Below the pieces are notes generated by a model that was not told the DNA's origin, did no database searches, and saw nothing but the letters and a program-made list of their open reading frames with translations. Position numbers and translations under genes: made by a program. A DNA stretch of 64,000 nt from Actinomycetospora sp. NBRC 106378 (GTDB taxonomy: Bacteria; Actinomycetota; Actinomycetes; Mycobacteriales; Pseudonocardiaceae), in NCBI RefSeq assembly GCF_030269685.1, contig NZ_BSTT01000013.1, forward strand, positions 62,001 through 126,000. Reading direction: 5' to 3'. This document shows positions 1,989 to 60,370 of the stretch, one piece after another (within the stretch, counting starts at the first letter, position 1; each line of letters starts with the position of its first letter).

Positions 1989-3800
1989 ATGTTGACCGAC
2001 CCGGCCAGGTTCGGCGCGCGCACCGTCCCGTCGCGCGTGCTGTTCGGTCCGCACGCGACGAACACCTCGCCCGACCGGACCCTCGGCTCGGTCGAGCACT
2101 ACCGCGCCCGGGCGGCGGGGGGCGCGGGGGTGATCGTCACCGAGGTCGCGTCGGTGACCGGGGACGACCGGCCCTACGAGTACGCGCCCCTGGCCTCCTC
2201 GTGCGTCGACGGGTGGGCGGAGGTCGCGGTCGCCTGTGCGCCGGCGCTGGTCCTCGCGGGGCTCGGGCACGCCGGGTCGCAGTCGTCGGCCCGCGGGCTG
2301 CTGCGGGCGCCGTCGTCGGTACCCGATCCGGCGACCCGGGCGGTGCCGCGTCCCCTGTCCGCCACCGAGATCGACGAGCTGGTCGGGGCCTTCACGACGG
2401 CGGGTCGCGCGGCCGTCGACGCCGGGTGCGCCGGCGTGGAGATCGCGGCCGGGCAGTACTCCCTGCTGCGGCAGTTCCGGTCGGGGCTCAGTACTCCGAC
2501 ACCGGACGACCGTGTGCTCGTGGCCGTGCTGGAGGCCGTCCGCGCGGAGCTCCCCGACGCGTGGGTGGGCCTGCGGCTCGGCGTCGACGAGCTGGCGCCG
2601 TGGGCCGGGATCACCCCGGACGCGGCGCTGGCGACGGTGGACCGCGTGGCCGGCCTGGTCGACCACGTCGTGCCGGTCCGGGGTTCCGCGATGTCGGTGC
2701 CGGCGACGCGTCCGGACGCGCACACGGCGCCCGGGTTCATGGCCGAGGCGTGCCGGGCGGTGCGCGCCGTGGTGGACGGCCGGTGCGCGGTGGTGCTGGC
2801 GGGCAGCGTCGTCGATCCCGCCGACGCGCGGGCGGCGCTGGACGACGGGGTGGCCGACCTCGTCGAGATGACCCGCGCGCTGCTCGCCGACCCGACCCTC
2901 GTCGCCACCGTGCGCGCCGGACGTGTCCCGCGGCCCTGCGTGCTGACCAACCAGCGGTGCCGGGTCCGGGACGTCCGGAACCCGAGGATCGGCTGCACGG
3001 TGGAGCCGTCGGTGGGTGAGCCCTTCCCCGGTGGCAGGAAAGCGTCGTTGCTGTCACGACGTGACAGCAACGACGCTTTCCTGCCACGAGGGGCCGAGGT
3101 GCTCGTCGCCGGGGCCGGGCCCGCCGGGATGGAGGCGGCGCGCACCCTGGCGCTGGCGGGACGGGCGGTGCGGATCGTGGAGCGGGACGACGAACCGGGC
3201 GGGCTGCTCCGGACGATCGCGGCCCTCCCCGGCCGGCACCGGTTCGGGCTGCTCGCCGACTGGTACGTCGACGAACTCGTCCGGCTCGGGGTGTCGATGC
3301 AGGTCGGAGCGCCTGCACCGCCCGGTGCGCACATCGTGGCGACCGGCGGGGACGACGTCGGGCTCACCCCGCTCGCCGTCCTGCGCGGCGCAGCGCTCGC
3401 CGGGCCCGTCGTCATCGACGACCCGCTCGGGGACGGATCGGCGGTCGCCCTCGCCGAGCACCTCGCGACCGGTCATGCGGTCACCCTCGTGACCGCCGAC
3501 CAGATCGTCGGGAAACAGCTGCACGACGTCGTCGGCGCGGCCACGAGACTCGAGCGGGCGGGCGTCGACCGCGTCCTCGAGCACCGGGTCGTCGAGCGCC
3601 GGGCCGACCACGTCGTCGTCGCGGACGTCGTGACCGGCGCACGCCGCACGATCCCCGGCACCCTCGTCGACGCCGGGCCGCGGCAGCCGGGCGACCCGTC
3701 GTCGGGACACGGAATCGGCGACGCCCGAGCGCCGCGGACCGTCGCCGAGGCGATTCGCGAGGGGCGCCGGGCGGCCGAGGAGATCCTCCGTGCTGGGTGA
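1989..3800 (+). CDS. Mycofactocin-cluster FadH/OYE-type oxidoreductase 1
   Basis: 603 residues: an old-yellow-enzyme FMN barrel (about 1-310), an iron-sulfur segment (317-336) and an FAD/NAD(P) domain with VLVAGAGPAGMEAARTLALA. The layout is that of FadH-like 2,4-dienoyl-CoA reductases and of OYE proteins repeatedly seen in mycofactocin clusters. Two features are odd. The cysteine quartet is C317, T320, C324, C336, so the second ligand is Thr where its neighbour has Cys. The usual barrel signature (HGAH ... FLSP.xNxR) is degraded to AAGQYSLLRQFRSGLS. A 57-bp perfect palindrome (3031-3087) adds residues 348-367 in frame between the cluster segment and the FAD domain. The end overlaps the next gene by 11 bp. 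Substrate and link to mycofactocin are inferred from context. Confidence 0.85.
   Translation: MLTDPARFGARTVPSRVLFGPHATNTSPDRTLGSVEHYRARAAGGAGVIVTEVASVTGDDRPYEYAPLASSCVDGWAEVAVACAPALVLAGLGHAGSQSSARGLLRAPSSVPDPATRAVPRPLSATEIDELVGAFTTAGRAAVDAGCAGVEIAAGQYSLLRQFRSGLSTPTPDDRVLVAVLEAVRAELPDAWVGLRLGVDELAPWAGITPDAALATVDRVAGLVDHVVPVRGSAMSVPATRPDAHTAPGFMAEACRAVRAVVDGRCAVVLAGSVVDPADARAALDDGVADLVEMTRALLADPTLVATVRAGRVPRPCVLTNQRCRVRDVRNPRIGCTVEPSVGEPFPGGRKASLLSRRDSNDAFLPRGAEVLVAGAGPAGMEAARTLALAGRAVRIVERDDEPGGLLRTIAALPGRHRFGLLADWYVDELVRLGVSMQVGAPAPPGAHIVATGGDDVGLTPLAVLRGAALAGPVVIDDPLGDGSAVALAEHLATGHAVTLVTADQIVGKQLHDVVGAATRLERAGVDRVLEHRVVERRADHVVVADVVTGARRTIPGTLVDAGPRQPGDPSSGHGIGDARAPRTVAEAIREGRRAAEEILRAG
3031..3087. 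repeat. 57-bp palindromic element, copy A, in frame inside oxidoreductase 1
   Basis: Two 28-bp arms are perfect inverse complements around a single A at 3059; each arm starts GTGGCAGGAAAGCGTCGTTG. It lies wholly inside a coding sequence. Its length is a multiple of three, so removing it would leave the frame intact. It encodes GGRKASLLSRRDSNDAFLPR in a linker. Further copies are at 8633-8689 and 55174-55230, with a half copy at 53464-53489. Confidence 0.95.
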
Positions 3801-7523: not shown

Positions 7524-9074
7524 ATGAGCACCCCACGCCTGCCGGACGGCTGGACCGTCCGCCCCGACCCCCGGACCTGGCGCGTCGACGGCGGGGCCAC
7601 CTGGATCGGCGGGTCGCCGCCCCGGGTGCTGCGGCTCTCGGCGGCGGCGCGCGGACGGCTCGCCGGGCCGGAGCTCGTCGTCACCGACGCCACGTCCGCA
7701 GCCCTGGCACGGCTGCTGTCCGATGCCGGGGTCGCGCATCCCGCCGGGGGAGGCGGTCCGACGCCGGACGACGTCACGGTGGTGGTCCCGGTCAAGGACC
7801 GCCCGGCCGAGCTCGACCGGCTGCTCGCGGCGGTCCGGGCGACCGCACCCGGCGTCGGGATCGTGGTGGTGGACGACGGCTCGGCCGTGCCCCAGGTGAC
7901 CGAGGCCGTCGTCGGGAAGCATGGCGGGCAGGTGATCCGGCATCGGACGAGTCGCGGTCCGTCCGCGGGTCGCAACACCGGCGCCCGGGCGTGCGCGACA
8001 CCGGTGATCGCGTTCCTCGACTCCGACGTCGTCCCCGAGCCGGGCTGGCTGGAGACGTTGCTGGCGCACCTCGGTGACCCGGCGGTCGGGCTCGTGGCTC
8101 CCCGGATCGTGGCCTTCTCCGACGGCGGCCCCGAGAACGCCGTGACCCGCTACGAGCGGCGACGCTCCTCGCTCGACCTCGGGCCCCGGCCGGCCCCGGT
8201 CACCGCCCGGTCGCGGGTGGCCTACGTCCCGAGCGCGGCGGTGCTCGTCCGGCGCGAGGCGTTCGGCGAGGGGTTCCGCGAGGACATGCCGGTCGCCGAG
8301 GACGTCGACCTGGTCTGGCGGATCGGCGCCGCGGGGTGGCGGCTGCGCTACGAGCCGGCCGCCCGCGTCGCGCACGAGCACCGCGCCCGCTTCCGTGCCT
8401 GGCTCGCCCGCAAGGCGTTCTACGGCACGGGCGCCGCCCCCCTCGCCCGGCAGCACCCCCGCCGCGTCCCGCCCGTCGCACTCGCCCCGTGGACGGCGGC
8501 GACGGTGACGCTGCTCGGCGTCCAACGCCGGTGGTCCGTCCTGACGGCGGGGGCCGTCACCCTGGTCGCGACGGCCCGGCTCGCCCGGGGCCTCCGCAAG
8601 CCGGGGGAGCCGTGGGTGTCGCTCCGTCCTCGGTGGCAGGAAAGCGTCGTTGCTGCCACCGGACGACAGCAACGACGCTTTCCTGCCACGAGGAGGGCCA
8701 CGAGGGGGGCGGCAAGGGGGGTGGCCACGGGGCCGGTCCCGCTCGCCCTCGTCCTGGCCCCCTGGGGCCTCGGCGGCGCGCTGTGGCAGGCGGCCGGGGC
8801 CCTGACGCGCCACTGGTGGCCGGCCGCGCTCGCCGGGGCCCTCGTGAGCCGACGGGTCCGGAGGGCGCTCCTGGTCGCGGCCGTCGCCGAGGGGCTGGCC
8901 GACTGGGTCCGGTTCCGCGACCCGGGCGCCGGGCCGCTCGACGCCGCCCTGCACGTCGCCGCCCACCGCGCCGACGACCTCGCCTACGGCGCCGGCCTCT
9001 GGTGGGGTGCGTGGCGGCACCGCACCGTCGAGCCGTTGCGGCCCGACCTCTCCGGGAAGGGACCCGATGCCTGA
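7524..9074 (+). CDS. mftF: Mycofactocin glycosyltransferase MftF (GT2)
   Basis: 516 residues. The GT-A domain (about 85-290) shows VTVVVPVKDRPAELDRLL, IVVVDDGS, SAGRNTGARA, the metal-binding AFLDSDVVPEPGW and EDVDLVWRIGAAGW. The C-terminal half is hydrophobic and probably membrane-associated. MftF extends premycofactocin with beta-1,4-linked glucose. A 57-bp palindromic element (8633-8689) inserts residues 370-389 in frame, in a basic loop between hydrophobic segments, and makes this protein longer than I would expect for MftF. The gene has its own -10 box and overlaps the MOSC gene by 8 bp. Confidence 0.9.
   Translation: MSTPRLPDGWTVRPDPRTWRVDGGATWIGGSPPRVLRLSAAARGRLAGPELVVTDATSAALARLLSDAGVAHPAGGGGPTPDDVTVVVPVKDRPAELDRLLAAVRATAPGVGIVVVDDGSAVPQVTEAVVGKHGGQVIRHRTSRGPSAGRNTGARACATPVIAFLDSDVVPEPGWLETLLAHLGDPAVGLVAPRIVAFSDGGPENAVTRYERRRSSLDLGPRPAPVTARSRVAYVPSAAVLVRREAFGEGFREDMPVAEDVDLVWRIGAAGWRLRYEPAARVAHEHRARFRAWLARKAFYGTGAAPLARQHPRRVPPVALAPWTAATVTLLGVQRRWSVLTAGAVTLVATARLARGLRKPGEPWVSLRPRWQESVVAATGRQQRRFPATRRATRGAARGVATGPVPLALVLAPWGLGGALWQAAGALTRHWWPAALAGALVSRRVRRALLVAAVAEGLADWVRFRDPGAGPLDAALHVAAHRADDLAYGAGLWWGAWRHRTVEPLRPDLSGKGPDA
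8633..8689. repeat. 57-bp palindromic element, copy B, in frame inside mftF
   Basis: Arms of 23 bp (8633-8655 and 8667-8689) are perfect inverse complements and identical to the outer arms of copy A. The 11-base centre CCACCGGACGA differs from copy A. The frame used in mftF stays open because of this centre; the copy A centre would give a TGA in the same frame. Confidence 0.95.
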
Positions 9075-34120: not shown

Positions 34121-34133
34121 GCCCGACACCCGC

Positions 34134-34180
34134 GCGAACGGCACTCCCGCAGCATCTATGTGCACGAGAGTGCCGTTCGC
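34134..34180. terminator. Bidirectional hairpin between modC and the SDR gene
   Basis: GCGAACGGCACTC (34134-34146) pairs perfectly with GAGTGCCGTTCGC (34168-34180) across 21 bases, in the gap between two convergent genes. A two-way terminator is the natural reading. Confidence 0.65.
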
Positions 34181-34201
34181 TCGGAAGGGAGGATGGGCCG
34201 A

Positions 34202-40835: not shown

Positions 40836-40885
40836 GCGGTCCCGACGGCGGCTCCGGCCCTGTCGCGGGTTTCCACCCTGCCGTG

Positions 40886-40922
40886 CCCACCTTGTCGTTG
40901 TGAATCACAACGACAAGGTGGG
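40886..40922. terminator. 37-bp perfect palindrome, nested in an outer repeat
   Basis: Two 18-bp arms (40886-40903 and 40905-40922, CCCACCTTGTCGTTGTGA and its complement) flank a single A. An outer pair TGTCGCGG (40861-40868) / CCGCGACA (40940-40947) encloses it. It lies between convergent stops at 40835 and 40955, the place of a two-way terminator. Confidence 0.7.
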
Positions 40923-40954
40923 ACCGGTCGGTCGAATGTCCGCGACAAGGCGGC

Positions 40955-51055: not shown

Positions 51056-52207
51056 GTGCCCCGTCCTGCCCTCCGCACCCTGGCTGCGGCCGGTGCGTTC
51101 GTCGTCGTCGCCGGCCTCGCGGCCGCCTGCTCGTCCGGGGGGGACGACGCGCAGGGCGGCAGCGAGGCGAAGGTCGCGCTCGCCCTGTCCGACGCGGGGT
51201 GCGCCCCGAACCCGGCGAGCGTGCCCGCCGGGCCGGTCACCTTCACCGTCACCAACTCGGGCACCGCGAAGGTCACCGAGGGCGAGATCCAGAAGGACAA
51301 CCGCATCCTGGGCGAGAAGGAGAACATCACCGAGGGCATCTCCGGCGACTTCTCGCTGCGCCTCGACCCGGGCACCTACACCGTGTACTGCCCGGGCGCG
51401 GCGCAGGACACCGCCGAGCTGACCGTGACCGGGCAGGGCGGGCAGTCCCAGGCGCCGGTCGACGCCTCGCTGGCGACCGCGACCGCGGGCTACAAGCAGT
51501 ACGTCGAGAACCAGGTCGCCGCGCTCGTGCCCGCCTCGAAGGCGTTCACCGACGCCGTCCGGGCCGGCGACGTGGCCCGCGCCCAGGCGCTCTACGCGCC
51601 GGCGCGCTACCACTACGAGACGATCGAGCCCGTCGCGGAGAGCTTCGGCGACCTCGACCCGGCGATCGACCTCCGCGAGCCCGACGTCGAGCCCGGGCAG
51701 GACTGGACCGGCTTCCACCGCATCGAGAAGTCGCTCTGGACCCAGAACACCGCCGCCGGGATGGCCCCGTACGCCGACAAGCTGGACGCCGACATCGCGA
51801 AGCTGCAGGCCCAGGTGGCCGGGGCCGAGTACCAGCCGGCCCAGCTCGCCAACGGTGCGAGCGAGCTGCTCACCGAGGTGTCGACCTCGAAGGTGACGGG
51901 GGAGGAGGACGCGTTCTCGCACACCGACCTCTCCGACTTCGACGCCAACATCGCCGGCGCGCAGCAGGCGTTCGAGCTGCTCAAGCCGTCCCTGCAGGCC
52001 AAGGATCCGGCCCTCGCCACCCAGCTGCAGGCGCGCTTCACCGGCATCACCGACGAGCTCACCCCGTTCCGTCGTGGTGAGTCCGCGCCCGGCATCCCGG
52101 CCTACGTCGACTACTCGACCGTGAGCGAGGAGCAGCGCCGCGTGCTCGCCGACCGGGTCAACGCGCTGGCCGAGCCGCTCTCCCAGGTGTCTGGGAAGGT
52201 GGCGTGA
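51056..52207 (+). CDS. efeO: Iron-uptake lipoprotein EfeO
   Basis: 383 residues. Lipobox LAAAC at the signal-peptide end, then a cupredoxin-like domain (about 35-120, PAGPVTFTVTNSGTAKVTEG ... TYTVYCPGA) and an imelysin/M75 domain with the metal motif HRIEK. It binds iron for EfeU. The GTG at 51056 has GAGAAAGG upstream. Its stop overlaps efeB (GTGA). Confidence 0.93.
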   Translation: MPRPALRTLAAAGAFVVVAGLAAACSSGGDDAQGGSEAKVALALSDAGCAPNPASVPAGPVTFTVTNSGTAKVTEGEIQKDNRILGEKENITEGISGDFSLRLDPGTYTVYCPGAAQDTAELTVTGQGGQSQAPVDASLATATAGYKQYVENQVAALVPASKAFTDAVRAGDVARAQALYAPARYHYETIEPVAESFGDLDPAIDLREPDVEPGQDWTGFHRIEKSLWTQNTAAGMAPYADKLDADIAKLQAQVAGAEYQPAQLANGASELLTEVSTSKVTGEEDAFSHTDLSDFDANIAGAQQAFELLKPSLQAKDPALATQLQARFTGITDELTPFRRGESAPGIPAYVDYSTVSEEQRRVLADRVNALAEPLSQVSGKVA

Positions 52208-53445
52208 CGCTCAGCAGACGTCGGTTCCTCGGCCGCGCCGGGCTGGTCGCCGCCGGCGCCGGCGCGGCCGGGGGCGTGCTCGCCGGCTGCTCCACCGACA
52301 CCGCGCCGCCGCCCGCGGTGGTGCCGTTCCGGGCCGACCACCAGGCCGGGATCGACACCGCCGCGCAGGACCGCCTGGCCTTCGCCGCGTTCGACGTGGT
52401 GCCCGGCTCGACACGGGCGGATCTCGTCGCCCTGCTCAGCACCTGGAGCGCCGCGGCCGAGGCGATGACCGCGGGCCGACCGGTCCCGGGGGAGAACGAC
52501 GACCAGAACTCCCCGCCCGCCGACACCGGCGAGGCGTTCGACCTGGCGCCGGGGAACCTCACGGTCACCGTCGGCTTCGGGCCCGGGCTCTTCGACGCCC
52601 GCTTCGGGCTGGGCGCGAAGCGGCCGGCCGAGCTGGCGGTGCTGCCGGCCCTGCCCGGGGACACCCTCGACCCGGCCATCTCCGGGGGCGACCTGTGCAT
52701 CCAGGCCTGCTCCGAGGACCCCCAGGTCGCGTTCCACGTCGTCCGCAACCTGGCGCGCCTCGGCCGCGGCACCGTCGTCACCCGGTGGACCCAGCTCGGC
52801 TTCGGGCGCACGTCGTCGACCTCCACCAGCCAGGTCACCGCCCGGAACCTCATGGGGTTCAAGGACGGCACGCGCAACCTCAAGGTCGAGGACCCGGCCG
52901 CCATGTCCCGCTCGGTGTGGGTCGATCCCGCCGACGTGCCGGACGCGGGCTGGCTGGCCGGCGGCTCCTACCTCGTGTCCCGCCGGATCCGGATGATCCT
53001 GGAGACCTGGGACCGGGACGTCCTCTCCGACCAGGAGGACGTGTTCGGGCGGGCCAAGGGGACCGGGGCGCCGTTGTCGGGGGGCGAGGAGTTCACCGCG
53101 CCGGACTTCCGCAAGACCCTCGCGACCGGGACCCCCGCGATCCCGCTCAACGCCCACATGCGGCTCGCCGCCCCGGAGAACAACGGGGGCACCGCGATCC
53201 TGCGCCGCTCCTACTCCTACACCGACGGCATCGATCAGACGACGGGCATGCTCGACGCCGGGCTGTTCTTCGTCGCGTTCATGCGCTCGCCCTCCCAGTT
53301 CGTCACGCTCCAGACGAAGCTGGGCGGGGGCGACGCGCTCAACGAGTACATCCGGCACACCTCGTCGGCCCTCTTCGCCTGCCCTCCGGGGGTGCGGGCG
53401 GGCGATCCGGGCGACTACTGGGGTCGCGCGCTGCTCGAGGGGTGA
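52204..53445 (+). CDS. efeB: Tat-exported dye-decolorizing peroxidase EfeB
   Basis: 413 residues. A twin-arginine signal (SRRRFLGRAGLVAAGAGAAG) leads to the DyP domain with MGFKDGTRN (GxxDG) and, later, the proximal-heme His in LNAHMRL. EfeB oxidises ferrous iron or releases iron from heme for EfeUO. The GTG at 52204 overlaps the efeO stop. A half copy of the 57-bp palindrome follows the stop. Confidence 0.94.
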   Translation: MTLSRRRFLGRAGLVAAGAGAAGGVLAGCSTDTAPPPAVVPFRADHQAGIDTAAQDRLAFAAFDVVPGSTRADLVALLSTWSAAAEAMTAGRPVPGENDDQNSPPADTGEAFDLAPGNLTVTVGFGPGLFDARFGLGAKRPAELAVLPALPGDTLDPAISGGDLCIQACSEDPQVAFHVVRNLARLGRGTVVTRWTQLGFGRTSSTSTSQVTARNLMGFKDGTRNLKVEDPAAMSRSVWVDPADVPDAGWLAGGSYLVSRRIRMILETWDRDVLSDQEDVFGRAKGTGAPLSGGEEFTAPDFRKTLATGTPAIPLNAHMRLAAPENNGGTAILRRSYSYTDGIDQTTGMLDAGLFFVAFMRSPSQFVTLQTKLGGGDALNEYIRHTSSALFACPPGVRAGDPGDYWGRALLEG

Positions 53446-53463
53446 GCCGCTCCCACACGCGGG

Positions 53464-53489
53464 AGGAAAGCGTCGTTGCTGTCGTCCGG
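53464..53489. repeat. Half copy of the 57-bp palindromic element, copy D
   Basis: AGGAAAGCGTCGTTGCTGTC plus GTCCGG repeats one arm and centre of the element (compare the minus strand of copy C). The opposite arm is absent, replaced by unrelated sequence. It starts 18 bp after the efeB stop. Confidence 0.85.
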
Positions 53490-53541
53490 CGGGAGAATCG
53501 CCCCGTCGTCGGGCCGGGGGAAGATCACGGTGACCGGCCCG

Positions 53542-53547
53542 TAACCT
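53542..53547 (+). promoter_or_regulatory. Probable -10 box of the transglycosylase gene
   Basis: TAACCT ends 8 bp before the ATG at 53556, fitting a leaderless transcript. Confidence 0.45.
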
Positions 53548-53555
53548 TCTCCGCG

Positions 53556-55163
53556 ATGAGCACGAGCGTCGACTCCCACCGCGGAGCGGGCCCGTCCGAC
53601 GAGGACGGCGAGCCCGACGACGTCACGGCGCCCCTGCGGCGTCCCTCCCCGGGGCCGCGGCTCGACGCGGACACCGAACGCCTCCCACGTCCCGACGTCG
53701 GGTCGCGTGGCCCGGCGGCGGTCGGGTGGTTCGACGCCGGCCCCGGGGTCGTGGTCCCGCCCGCCGTCCCGCCCGCGACCCCGGCGGTCGCGCTCGCGGC
53801 GACGGCGCCCACGGAGGACCCCGGCGGAACGGCTCCCTCCGACGGGGTGTCTCCCCCCACGGCCGCTCCCGACCCGGCCGCCCCCGACGGGGCGCCCTCC
53901 GCGGGAGCCGCTCCCGGCGACCCGACGACCGCCCCGCCCTCGGCACCGGCGACCGTCGACGGCTCCCCGGCGGAGGCCCTCGCCGCGACGTCCCCGGACC
54001 GGCCGTCCGACACCCGGCCACGTCGGCGCTCCCGGGGGCTCCGGGTCCCGACGGCCCCCGTCGCCGCAGCACCCGCCGCTCCGGCCCCCGCGGGCGCGGC
54101 ACCCGCCGGCCCGGCACCCTCCGGCGCGGCCGCCTCCGCCCGGGGCACCACCACTCCGCCGGACCCGGGGCCGCCACCGTGGCGTCCCGGCGACCGGCCC
54201 GAGGCGCCGACCACCACGTCGGCCACCACGTCGGTCCGCCCGCGGCCCACGCCCCGGCCCCGCCCGACCCCGTCCCCGCGCCCGACGGGCACGTCGTCCC
54301 CGTCGTCGGGAATCGACCTGCTGCCCCCCGTGGGCGGGCCGCCCCCGCCGCGCACGCCGAAGGAGCCGCCGAAGAAGCACACGGCCGCACTCGGGCGACT
54401 GGCGCTGGTGCTCGTGCTGGTGGCGGCGGTGGTCGGGACGGTCGTGGTGCTCCAGCAGGGCAGCCGGTTCGGGCGCACGGACGCCGGTGCGGACGAGATC
54501 CCGGCCCTCGAGGTGGCGCCGGCGCAGGTCGACCTGAACACGGTCGGGCAGCCGAACGCGATCGCGCCGCCCTCGGCCCTGCTGCCCGGTTCGACGTCGA
54601 CGCCGCAGGCCGGCCGGCCGCCGACGATCTCGGCCTGGGCGAACGGGCTGGCGCCGCGGACGAACATCCCGCCGATCGCGCTGCAGGCGTACGGCATGGC
54701 GGACCTGGCGATGCGCAAGCTCGACCCGGGCTGTCACCTGAGCTGGGTGACCATCGCGGGGCTCGGGCGCATCGAGTCGAACCACGGCCGCTACCGGGGC
54801 GCCAGCATCGCCCCGAACGGCGCGGTGACGCCCCCGATCATCGGTGTCCCGCTCGACGGCACGAGCGGGAACCGGGCGATCGCCGGCAGCGACGGCAACT
54901 ACGACCGCGCCGAGGGCCCGATGCAGTTCATCGAGTCCACCTGGGCGCGGTGGGGCTCGGACGGCAACGGCGACGGCGTGGCCGACCCGAACAACATCTA
55001 CGACGCCGCGTTCACCGCCGGCCGCTACCTCTGCGCCGGCAACCGGGACCTGGCGACGGGCGAGGGCTGGCGCGACGCGGTGCTCTCGTACAACTTCTCC
55101 GACGACTACGGCCGCCGGGTCTACGCAGCCGCCCAGGCGTACGCGAACAGCACGACGCCCTAG
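53556..55163 (+). CDS. Membrane-anchored lytic transglycosylase (LpqU-like)
   Basis: 535 residues. The first 270 are Pro/Ala/Thr-rich and cytoplasmic, without a fold I recognise. One transmembrane helix follows (LALVLVLVAAVVGTVVVL). The extracytoplasmic C-terminal domain is a soluble-lytic-transglycosylase type: GLGRIESNHGRYRG with the catalytic Glu, AEGPMQFIESTWARWGSDGN and DAAFTAGRYLCAG. It would cleave peptidoglycan near the membrane. In Mycobacterium the lipoprotein LpqU holds this place between mazG and eno, but here the anchor is a helix. It is leaderless by its -10 box. It contains CCCGTCGTCGGGAA at 54299-54312. Confidence 0.87.
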   Translation: MSTSVDSHRGAGPSDEDGEPDDVTAPLRRPSPGPRLDADTERLPRPDVGSRGPAAVGWFDAGPGVVVPPAVPPATPAVALAATAPTEDPGGTAPSDGVSPPTAAPDPAAPDGAPSAGAAPGDPTTAPPSAPATVDGSPAEALAATSPDRPSDTRPRRRSRGLRVPTAPVAAAPAAPAPAGAAPAGPAPSGAAASARGTTTPPDPGPPPWRPGDRPEAPTTTSATTSVRPRPTPRPRPTPSPRPTGTSSPSSGIDLLPPVGGPPPPRTPKEPPKKHTAALGRLALVLVLVAAVVGTVVVLQQGSRFGRTDAGADEIPALEVAPAQVDLNTVGQPNAIAPPSALLPGSTSTPQAGRPPTISAWANGLAPRTNIPPIALQAYGMADLAMRKLDPGCHLSWVTIAGLGRIESNHGRYRGASIAPNGAVTPPIIGVPLDGTSGNRAIAGSDGNYDRAEGPMQFIESTWARWGSDGNGDGVADPNNIYDAAFTAGRYLCAGNRDLATGEGWRDAVLSYNFSDDYGRRVYAAAQAYANSTTP

Positions 55164-55173
55164 CCACCTCCCC

Positions 55174-55230
55174 CTGGTAGGAAAGCGTCGTTGCTGTCAC
55201 CGGACGACAGCAACGACGCTTTCCTGCCAC
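55174..55230. repeat. 57-bp palindromic element, copy C, intergenic
   Basis: Starts 11 bp after the transglycosylase stop, between convergent genes. Arms match copies A and B except for one base change in the left arm (GGTAGG for GGCAGG) and the first base. The loop is ACCGGAC. Here the hairpin probably ends transcription from both sides. Confidence 0.93.
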
Positions 55231-55261
55231 CGGGGCCGTTCCTGCCTACCGGGGCGGGGGT

Positions 55262-55666
55262 TCACGCCCCGCGACGCAGCGCGATGGACGCGCTGACCTC
55301 CCCGAGCGCCTCCTGGTACTCGGGCCGCGGGTCCATGGCGGCGGCCATCCGCAGCTGCGCCCGGGCCTCGGGCAGGCGCGACTGGCGCTGCAGGCACCGA
55401 CCGAGGGCGAACCGGGCGTAGTGGTCGGCGGGGTCGAGCTCGAGGACCCGGAGGAACGAGGCCTCGGCGCGGCGCAGCTGGGCCGACGCGAGGTACGCCC
55501 GCGCGGCGAGGAGCTGCACCGACGCGGCCTCGCTCTCGGTCTCGGGCAACGTGCCCAGCGCCTTCAGCGCGTCGAGGGGCCGCCGGTCGTCGAGCAGCTG
55601 CTCCGCCCGCCGGAAGGCCGTGACACCGGATTCGGGAAAGTTCGCCGCCCTGCGCTCCGATGACAT
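55262..55666 (-). CDS. Small TPR-repeat protein
   Basis: 134 residues with about two tetratricopeptide repeats (SVQLLAARAYLASAQLRRAE and DPADHYARFALGRCLQRQSR), the rest helical. A scaffold or adaptor; partner unknown. The ATG at 55666 lies 6 bp from a TACCGT -10 box (55678-55673), so it is probably leaderless. Divergent from eno. Confidence 0.82.
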   Translation of the reverse strand: MSSERRAANFPESGVTAFRRAEQLLDDRRPLDALKALGTLPETESEAASVQLLAARAYLASAQLRRAEASFLRVLELDPADHYARFALGRCLQRQSRLPEARAQLRMAAAMDPRPEYQEALGEVSASIALRRGA

Positions 55667-55729
55667 TCCCGCACGGTAGGACCCGAACGCGCCGGACGCG
55701 AGAGCTGAACCGGGCCCCGCGGGGTGTGA

Positions 55730-57100
<1,371 letters not shown>

Positions 57101-60296: not shown

Positions 60297-60370
60297 GCCC
60301 CTGTAGCCCAATCGGCAGAGGCAGGCGACTTAAAATCGCCGCAGTGTGGGTTCGAACCCCACCGGGGGCA
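60297..60370 (+). tRNA. tRNA-Leu (anticodon TAA), 74 nt with short variable loop
   Basis: Acceptor GCCCCTG / CGGGGGC, D-arm with a 3-bp stem, anticodon stem GGCGA / TCGCC with loop CTTAAAA (anticodon TAA), a 5-nt variable loop GCAGT, T-arm GTGGG-TTCGAAC-CCCAC, discriminator A and no encoded CCA. By anticodon it reads UUA (Leu). Leucine tRNAs normally have a long variable arm; this one does not. It starts 10 bp after the udg stop. Confidence 0.92.

Follow-up and report, generated by a model that had tools for sequence, protein, structure and literature searches.

A dispersed palindromic hairpin repeat in Actinomycetospora with in-frame copies inside protein genes

Rickettsia is the best-known source of palindromes that code for protein. 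According to passages of the review PMC10969869, the Rickettsia palindromic elements (RPE) comprise about 150 bp, encode a conserved peptide and lie in frame in genes of unrelated proteins as well as elsewhere. The REPs of the GTAG and CGTC super-families are shorter, and the passages of Di Nocera et al. 2013 (PMC3733652) considered here describe them as repeats of 20-40 bp with stems of 5-13 bp and an unpaired terminal tag. They occur in high copy number, mostly past genes; most REPs between convergent genes lie less than 20 bp from both 3' ends, and some REPs are found in ORFs (same passages of PMC3733652). For the CGTC super-family, these passages give a terminal CGTC, a stem of 8-9 bp with A-T in the first two pairs, a loop of 4-5 nt and a CCA tail, and state that a dedicated transposase is lacking. 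The word 'actinobacteria' is absent from the main text of PMC3733652, and untagged REP-like repeats are mentioned in its passages for M. tuberculosis.

The window analysed here, a stretch of 64,000 nucleotides from Actinomycetospora sp. NBRC 106378, carries three palindromes (copies A, B and C) that had been listed in a preliminary description. Their positions, as well as the exact length of 57 bp, were confirmed for all three (Table 1), with copy A being the only perfect one. It comprises two perfect 28-bp arms, and the sole mismatch to its own reverse complement is the centre base, while copies B and C differ from their reverse complements at 7/57 and 9/57 positions. A fourth, imperfect copy, absent from the preliminary description, was additionally found in the window (half-type element in Table 1). 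Copy A is read in frame 1 and copy B in frame 2, in agreement with the two different frames of the preliminary description, and the centre of copy A would indeed create a stop in the frame of copy B. The mycofactocin identities were determined with Pfam and with NCBIfam models, for the latter of which MftF, MftE and the radical SAM maturase scored above the cut-offs and both OYE proteins below. Copy A showed a folding energy of -53.9 kcal/mol (z of -12.2), and the three window palindromes ranged from -45.6 to -53.9 kcal/mol (z of -10.4 to -12.2). Compared to these, three half-type elements folded less strongly (z of -1.8 to -2.8). At the gathering score, Rfam gave no match for the palindromes of the window; only a tRNA gene (60297-60370) was found.

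Table 1. Positions and sequence context of the elements and of the host genes in the window; P, palindrome; E, half-type element; positions without prefix refer to the window.
Feature	Position	Strand	Remarks
Copy A, perfect 57-bp palindrome in mycofactocin OYE/FadH-family gene	3031..3087	.	in frame; encodes GGRKASLLSRRDSNDAFLPR, residues 348-367
Copy B, 57-bp palindrome in mftF	8633..8689	.	in frame; 25/28 pairs; encodes RWQESVVAATGRQQRRFPAT, residues 370-389
Copy C, 57-bp palindrome, intergenic	55174..55230	.	24/28 pairs; 10 nt past stop codon; terminator-like position
Half-type (E) element	53459..53515	+	arm as in copies A-C, imperfect second arm; 13 nt past stop codon
Host gene of copy A, mycofactocin FadH/OYE-family oxidoreductase	1989..3800	+	best NCBIfam model TIGR03996, under its cut-off; Pfam
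Host gene of copy B, glycosyltransferase MftF	7524..9074	+	NCBIfam TIGR03965, above its cut-off
Verified genic P, OYE and MftF	window (copies A and B)		in frame
Verified genic P, AtuA			between its two Pfam domains
Verified genic P, methyltransferase			weak Pfam: MTS just below cut-off; palindrome within UPF0020 match, also below cut-off
Verified genic P, Ser/Thr kinase			between kinase and DUF4232 domains
Verified genic P, CobB/CbiA			inside nucleotide-binding domain
Verified genic P, AMP-binding enzyme	L166		in frame
Verified genic P, NRPS	L181		in frame, within condensation domain
P at ends of called genes, in neither class	L176		
P at ends of called genes, in neither class	L180		
P at ends of called genes, in neither class	C1:397929		
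P at ends of called genes, in neither class	C1:564500		

The genome of the window (G000; 6.3 Mb, 52 contigs) was compared with 17 other genomes of the genus. Genome-wide, a 20-nt arm with up to 2 mismatches was matched 121+121 times and 81 palindromes (spacer of 7, up to 3 mismatches) were determined, while the control, a reversed pattern in the case of the arm, yielded 0 in both searches. Strong hairpins of all palindrome families (at least 18/22 pairs) amounted to 93 in an 800-kb sample of contig C1 compared to 12 in one order-3 Markov sequence. Since the counts lie far above these controls, the family is not a product of chance, and many further copies exist, while a genome without further copies would have contradicted the preliminary description. 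With 1 mismatch allowed, the arm was found in 5/390 genomes of the bacterial family, all belonging to one genus (1/46 genera), and one of these five, G017, showed 3 arm matches only. Exact matches to a longer half-type element among 84,980 species genomes, from which the window's own records were possibly excluded, were obtained for Actinomycetospora soli alone, in 3 stretches.

Of the 28 arm-bearing elements in 800 kb of contig C1, 8 are palindromes (P) and 20 are half-type elements (E), the latter consisting of the arm, about 7 nt and a diverged second arm, mostly with a consensus of its own. Much of the arm core is unvarying across 26 aligned copies. Since the spacing was identical in 57/57 facing arm pairs found in the sequence examined, the length of 57 bp characterizes the family as a whole and is not specific to its coding members. 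The idea that a multiple of three represents a coding adaptation has to be given up, as intergenic copies have the same length. Moreover, the extra length in G000 compared to empty relatives is 60-63 nt for the methyltransferase and 66 nt for CobB, not 57. G006, a genome without arm matches, contains a related dialect of its own in 400 kb, often adjoining stop codons and also present inside mftF (52 matches, of which many three-mismatch ones within genes look like chance). Based on the similar layout of this dialect in a genome free of arm matches, E looks like the older form. Accordingly worded as a model, an imperfect hairpin of arm, short loop and diverged second arm, about 10 nt past stop codons, would be the ancestral state, and in the G000 clade the sharp arm would have taken over the place of the second arm, resulting in the near-perfect 57-bp P.

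Palindromes of other sequence were observed as well. At 34130-34184 the window contains a different inverted repeat, GAACGGCACTC...GAGTGCCGTTCG, the likes of which are repeated in the C1 sample as a second palindrome family, and further repeated families occur there at L034-L073, for example of the CAGGTGAGCACTATTCCGTGC, GGAACGAACGACGCGTTCGTGC and GTCACGTCAGGCAGC types. A 47-nt inverted repeat, 77% complementary and with 1 nt between its arms, lies at 40857-40951 of the window.

For the position relative to genes, 55 P of about 81 were examined, originating from C1, the window and 36 stretches picked for earlier P or near-P matches and including all 43 zero-mismatch palindromes of the genome. 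Genes were called by our own codon-usage script, with some starts miscalled and the strand wrong at three P. While 43 of the P are intergenic, 8 lie in frame inside genes and 4 at gene ends in neither class. Two candidates for genic copies were by judgement counted as intergenic, namely L187:5314, which lies upstream of an ECH domain and is directly followed by a stretch of poor codon score ahead of that domain, and L160:5122, which lies 14 nt past another ORF and for which the scanned overlapping ORFs gave no Pfam match. Compared to a coding fraction of 0.905 (90.5%) in the C1 sample, 8/55 genic P correspond to a strong depletion. An upstream stop was located at most 18 nt away in 27/41 P initially called intergenic, and P between convergent genes typically lie about 10 nt from each stop. 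In the E rows, 4/33 of which sit less than 100 nt from a P, stops at a distance of up to 45 nt were found beside the arm in 20/33 cases and on the opposite side in 5/33, with two rows falling inside ORFs (L189:7137 and L192:7082).

This REP-like positional habit fits a transcript-end hairpin, and judged from the sequence the hairpin probably works at transcript ends. Once transcribed, it would mark or stabilise the 3' end; between convergent genes, the element would be a bidirectional terminator or an RNA-end hairpin. Sequence ahead of the element is rich in C and sequence behind it rich in G; in line with this G-rich consensus flank, the hairpin has no U-tract behind it, and a terminator scan of 52000-57000 does not select copy C. 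A preference for G-U on the sense strand was weak, with 20 G-U compared to 12 A-C in 24 codirectional P.

Among the eight genic copies, seven share one peptide frame (GRKASLL...DSNDAFLP), the exception being MftF. Assuming equal use of the three frames, the probability of at least 7/8 copies in one frame is 0.008. This bias is partly trivial, since frame 2 carries a stop in 59/110 orientations, compared to 1/110 for each of the other two. Frame 0, however, is open yet unused by the genic copies, and since 7/8 share one frame in spite of this, the peptide as well as the DNA is probably filtered. The preliminary view that selection acts on the DNA and not on the peptide therefore holds only in part. 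In the proposed course of events, a few copies landed in an open frame in tolerant loops or linkers, where they would persist as spacer peptide. Palindromes located in ORFs, in frame and absent from orthologues are what characterizes the Rickettsia type, and this is what was found here. With 8 verified genic copies and relatives that are empty at several sites, the suggested likeness to the Rickettsia case, in which the palindromes are dispersed and some of them lie in genes in frame, is borne out.

The corresponding sites in the relatives were compared by orthologue alignments for 5/8 genic copies; the relatives vary per gene, and G014 is absent from all alignments (fragment or weak match). 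In the methyltransferase, the insert is absent in 13/16 relatives, including G017 as the nearest outgroup, while G002 contains a P and G005 and G009 a diverged E-like sequence. The CobB site (16 relatives) is filled in G009, reduced to a shortened remnant in G002 and empty in G005 and G017, and eight relatives showed a short loop. A different insert occupies the CobB loop of G006, G010 and G011 (L224, L222 and L223; TGCGTGCGTTTCC...GGAAACACACGCA in G006), which its z identifies as a hairpin in G006 and G011 but not in G010. The same loop of G007 (L225) holds a long tandem-like G+C-rich coding insert. At the OYE site (15 relatives), related palindromes were found in G005 and G002, a longer insert in G009, a shorter diverged sequence in G017 and an insert of other sequence in G012; the other 10 comprise a short linker only. 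For MftF (16 relatives), the palindrome is present in G005, ten relatives contain 54-57 nt of diverged sequence at the slot (z of -0.4 to -5.5), and G001, G002, G003 and G011 show short or no inserts. The G009 gene is split over contig ends and not readable; this assembly breaks in mftF near the palindrome slot (G009:C13:1 and the end of G009:C23), perhaps because of the repeat. For the kinase, as taken from the match table only, both flanks align in G017, which has about 20 nt between them compared to about 82 in G000.

The AtuA linker (L258-L272) was aligned for 13 relatives, with matches in G004, G008 and G012 left out. Several species carry inserts resembling different palindrome families, which might point to a preferred or repeatedly used slot; none is visible in G016 and G013. 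The AtuA of G007, G015, G001 and G003 match by only 67-71% and may be paralogues, and G009 has extra copies at 75 and 68%. Folding of the insert was strong in G000, G009 and G003 (z of -10.8, -5.4 and -4.6), weaker in G007, G015, G017 and G011 (-2.6 to -2.0) and little or absent in the rest. A hairpin z near 0 was determined for the genic slots of the methyltransferase in G005 and G009 and of AtuA in G002 and G005. Based on the uneven folding at the AtuA linker, genic copies seem to lose their palindrome with age and to become ordinary linker. The expectation that the extra residues would be missing in relatives agrees with the several empty or short-looped genic sites, and the opposite case, the same residues encoded by different codons, did not occur within the genus, the more distant species of which are devoid of the methyltransferase, CobB and OYE inserts.

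The arms differ between species. AGGAAA precedes the core in 27/32 arms of the G000 sample, in 7/11 of G005 and in 1 of G002, while in the G002 sample 9/17 arms showed AGCGAA. Among the C1 elements with both flanks present in the G002 sample, 10/11 sites hold a family member, and in G005 the same applies to 9/9 flanked sites, one of them partial (both by eye); the flanks of 8 further C1 elements in that interval are absent from the G002 and G005 samples. Differences in presence and absence likewise appeared when the search was relaxed and run in every direction, some from weak chance matches. At C1:369045, G000 and G005 contain an E and G002 a P, and at C1:490999 an unrelated palindrome in G005 stands at the place of a member of the present family in G000 and G002. 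The clade tree calculated from four genes, (G017,(G009,(G002,(G000,G005)))), has weak inner support (0.69 and 0.84), and trees of individual genes vary. The similarity among paralogues clearly exceeded that among orthologues only in G000 (0.947 compared to 0.880 and 0.909); in G002 it did so barely (0.896 compared to 0.880 and 0.889), and in G005 this was not the case (0.865 compared to 0.909 and 0.889).

Compensatory change between the arms is present but modest against shuffles, a control that does not preserve relatedness. Pairing was observed in 95.1% of cells compared to 93.5% in shuffles (1/500 reach the observed value), the covariation score was 0.117 compared to 0.094 (2/500), and double-changed cells amounted to 12 compared to 7.8 (25/500). 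The number of pairs with a double change, 4, was not above the shuffles (432/500 reach it). Since each species has its typical arm even where a site is common to several of them, the copies seem to be renewed in place. This renewal would proceed by recombination or template copying, from arm to arm and between copies, and not by fresh transposition. A more far-reaching version, which we put forward only tentatively and consider less likely than not, is that the slots past stop codons and in a few protein linkers are stable but have their palindrome rewritten, as E or P, with the species-typical arm or as an unrelated family, by a genome-wide copying of arms that takes place without a Y1 transposase and rewrites codons. 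If true, such rewriting would be strong enough to change the codons of protein genes.

Mobilisation was considered as an explanation for the dispersal. The preliminary description had proposed a REP-type Y1 transposase, and movement by a RAYT/Y1 enzyme would agree with the location of the copies at REP-like places and in genes, for which passages of PMC3733652 give parallels among REPs. However, PF01797 was found in 0/18 genomes of the genus, while the same search was positive in 5/14 control genomes, and the consensus has no terminal GTAG; for these assemblies, the proposal is largely refuted and we consider it extremely improbable. A plasmid or phage origin was dismissed, since the 57-mer had no match at E 1e-5 in either collection. 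The elements could also be MITEs, i.e. minimal ends of DNA transposons moved in trans by a non-Y1 transposase, with facing E forming passenger cassettes. Dispersal, fixed length, inverted ends and facing pairs around genes point in this direction, as do the empty CobB slot of G005 and the lack of C1:738825 in G002 and of G005:280875 in both G002 and G000, the latter possibly with a remnant. Of the facing pairs in the C1 sample, three surround a single gene (0.75-1.36 kb), another surrounds four, and one contains no called gene. None of these 7 genes is a transposase by Pfam; 4 matched other families (one below cut-off) and 3 gave no match. The cassette C1:367742-369101 was matched in three relatives (G002, G005 and G009), inspection by eye of the CobB and methyltransferase sites showed no target-site duplication, most testable sites are common to several species, and each E makes better sense as the 3' element of the gene next to it on the outside. 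Altogether, MITEs appear rather unlikely. Passenger cassettes with inverted E pairs as transposon ends were rejected as the main reading because E lie mostly past the stop of the outside neighbour and the Pfam-matched enclosed genes are ordinary. Beside the left E of the FAD-binding oxidoreductase locus, G009 (C3:87529-94486) contains about 1.8 kb extra compared to G000.

The insertion of new palindromes into old ones was likewise discarded, as the complementarity of the flanks was 5.89 compared to 5.88 +/- 0.17 in shuffled flank pairs; no copy-specific pairing between element flanks was detected. Alternatively, a protein with sequence specificity, such as a nucleoid or termination factor, may bind the elements, and the arms would have changed together in each species along with its specificity. 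The invariance of much of the arm core in the 26 aligned copies would fit, and so would the occurrence of AGGAAA and AGCGAA also in E, whose second arm does not match. Since the swap to an unrelated family at C1:490999 in G005 and the decay in some genic slots do not agree with strict conservation of sites, the proposal is regarded as improbable. Uptake sequences of Neisseria and Haemophilus occur as species dialects and as inverted pairs at gene ends. The dialects and inverted pairs described here resemble them and could represent signals of the DNA-uptake type, maintained through uptake bias together with recombination. The genome contains about 240 arms, though, and 0/28 arm matches on C1 (25-nt arm, up to 5 mismatches) are a clean lone arm by eye; this absence led us to reject uptake signals, to which we attach hardly any probability.

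We therefore prefer, with a probability of roughly 0.6, the reading as a genus-wide, non-autonomous hairpin repeat of REP/RPE-like kind, of which E is the older form and P the form of this clade, which acts at transcript 3' ends, includes tolerated in-frame copies and is renewed in place. The repeat offers a clear actinobacterial case of coding palindromes, for which close relatives with full, decayed and empty sites make gain, rewriting and loss traceable. In this case, enzymes gain about 20 internal residues from a DNA element, among them a methyltransferase, an amidotransferase of the CobB/CbiA type and the condensation domain of an NRPS. It also raises the question how near-identical palindromes stay alike genome-wide with no REP transposase found.

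Compared to known systems, the elements share with MITEs that they are short, non-coding, dispersed inverted repeats, but neither a target-site duplication (two sites, by eye) nor an autonomous partner (among the 7 enclosed genes) was found. Like intrinsic terminators, they form a strong G+C-rich hairpin about 10 nt past stop codons, often between convergent genes; unlike these, they have no U-tract, are near-identical in many copies and also lie inside genes. With the REPs they have in common the high copy number, the post-gene position, the distance of less than 20 bp (27/41 P within 18 nt) and some copies in ORFs, whereas stems of 25-28 bp without an unpaired terminal tag set them apart from the REPs of the PMC3733652 passages. 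The consensus of 55 P begins with GTGGCAGG and finishes with CCTGCCAC, thus carrying no GTAG tag, and PF01797 is missing as stated above. In P, CGTC is paired within an arm of a 25-28 bp stem, which separates it from the CGTC REPs by their text description in those passages; E ends near ATCGTCG, so that a distant likeness to the CGTC REPs remains. As the tag and transposase of these super-families are lacking, the repeat was not filed in either. The untagged REP-like repeats of M. tuberculosis are likewise actinobacterial, a likeness drawn from their bare mention in PMC3733652. The earlier statement that no actinobacterial family is described is thus too wide with regard to this mention, but holds for in-frame copies, of which no actinobacterial case was found; the open-access literature, judged by its listing and with most subscription papers outside its scope, contained nothing relevant on such palindromes in actinobacteria. 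As in the passages of PMC10969869 on RPE, palindromic repeats lie in frame in unrelated genes and elsewhere, although here they comprise 57 bp with arms of 25-28 bp and are actinobacterial, a comparison made at the level of description. The family is an actinobacterial form of the known REP/RPE type, i.e. of dispersed post-gene palindromes with some genic copies in frame.
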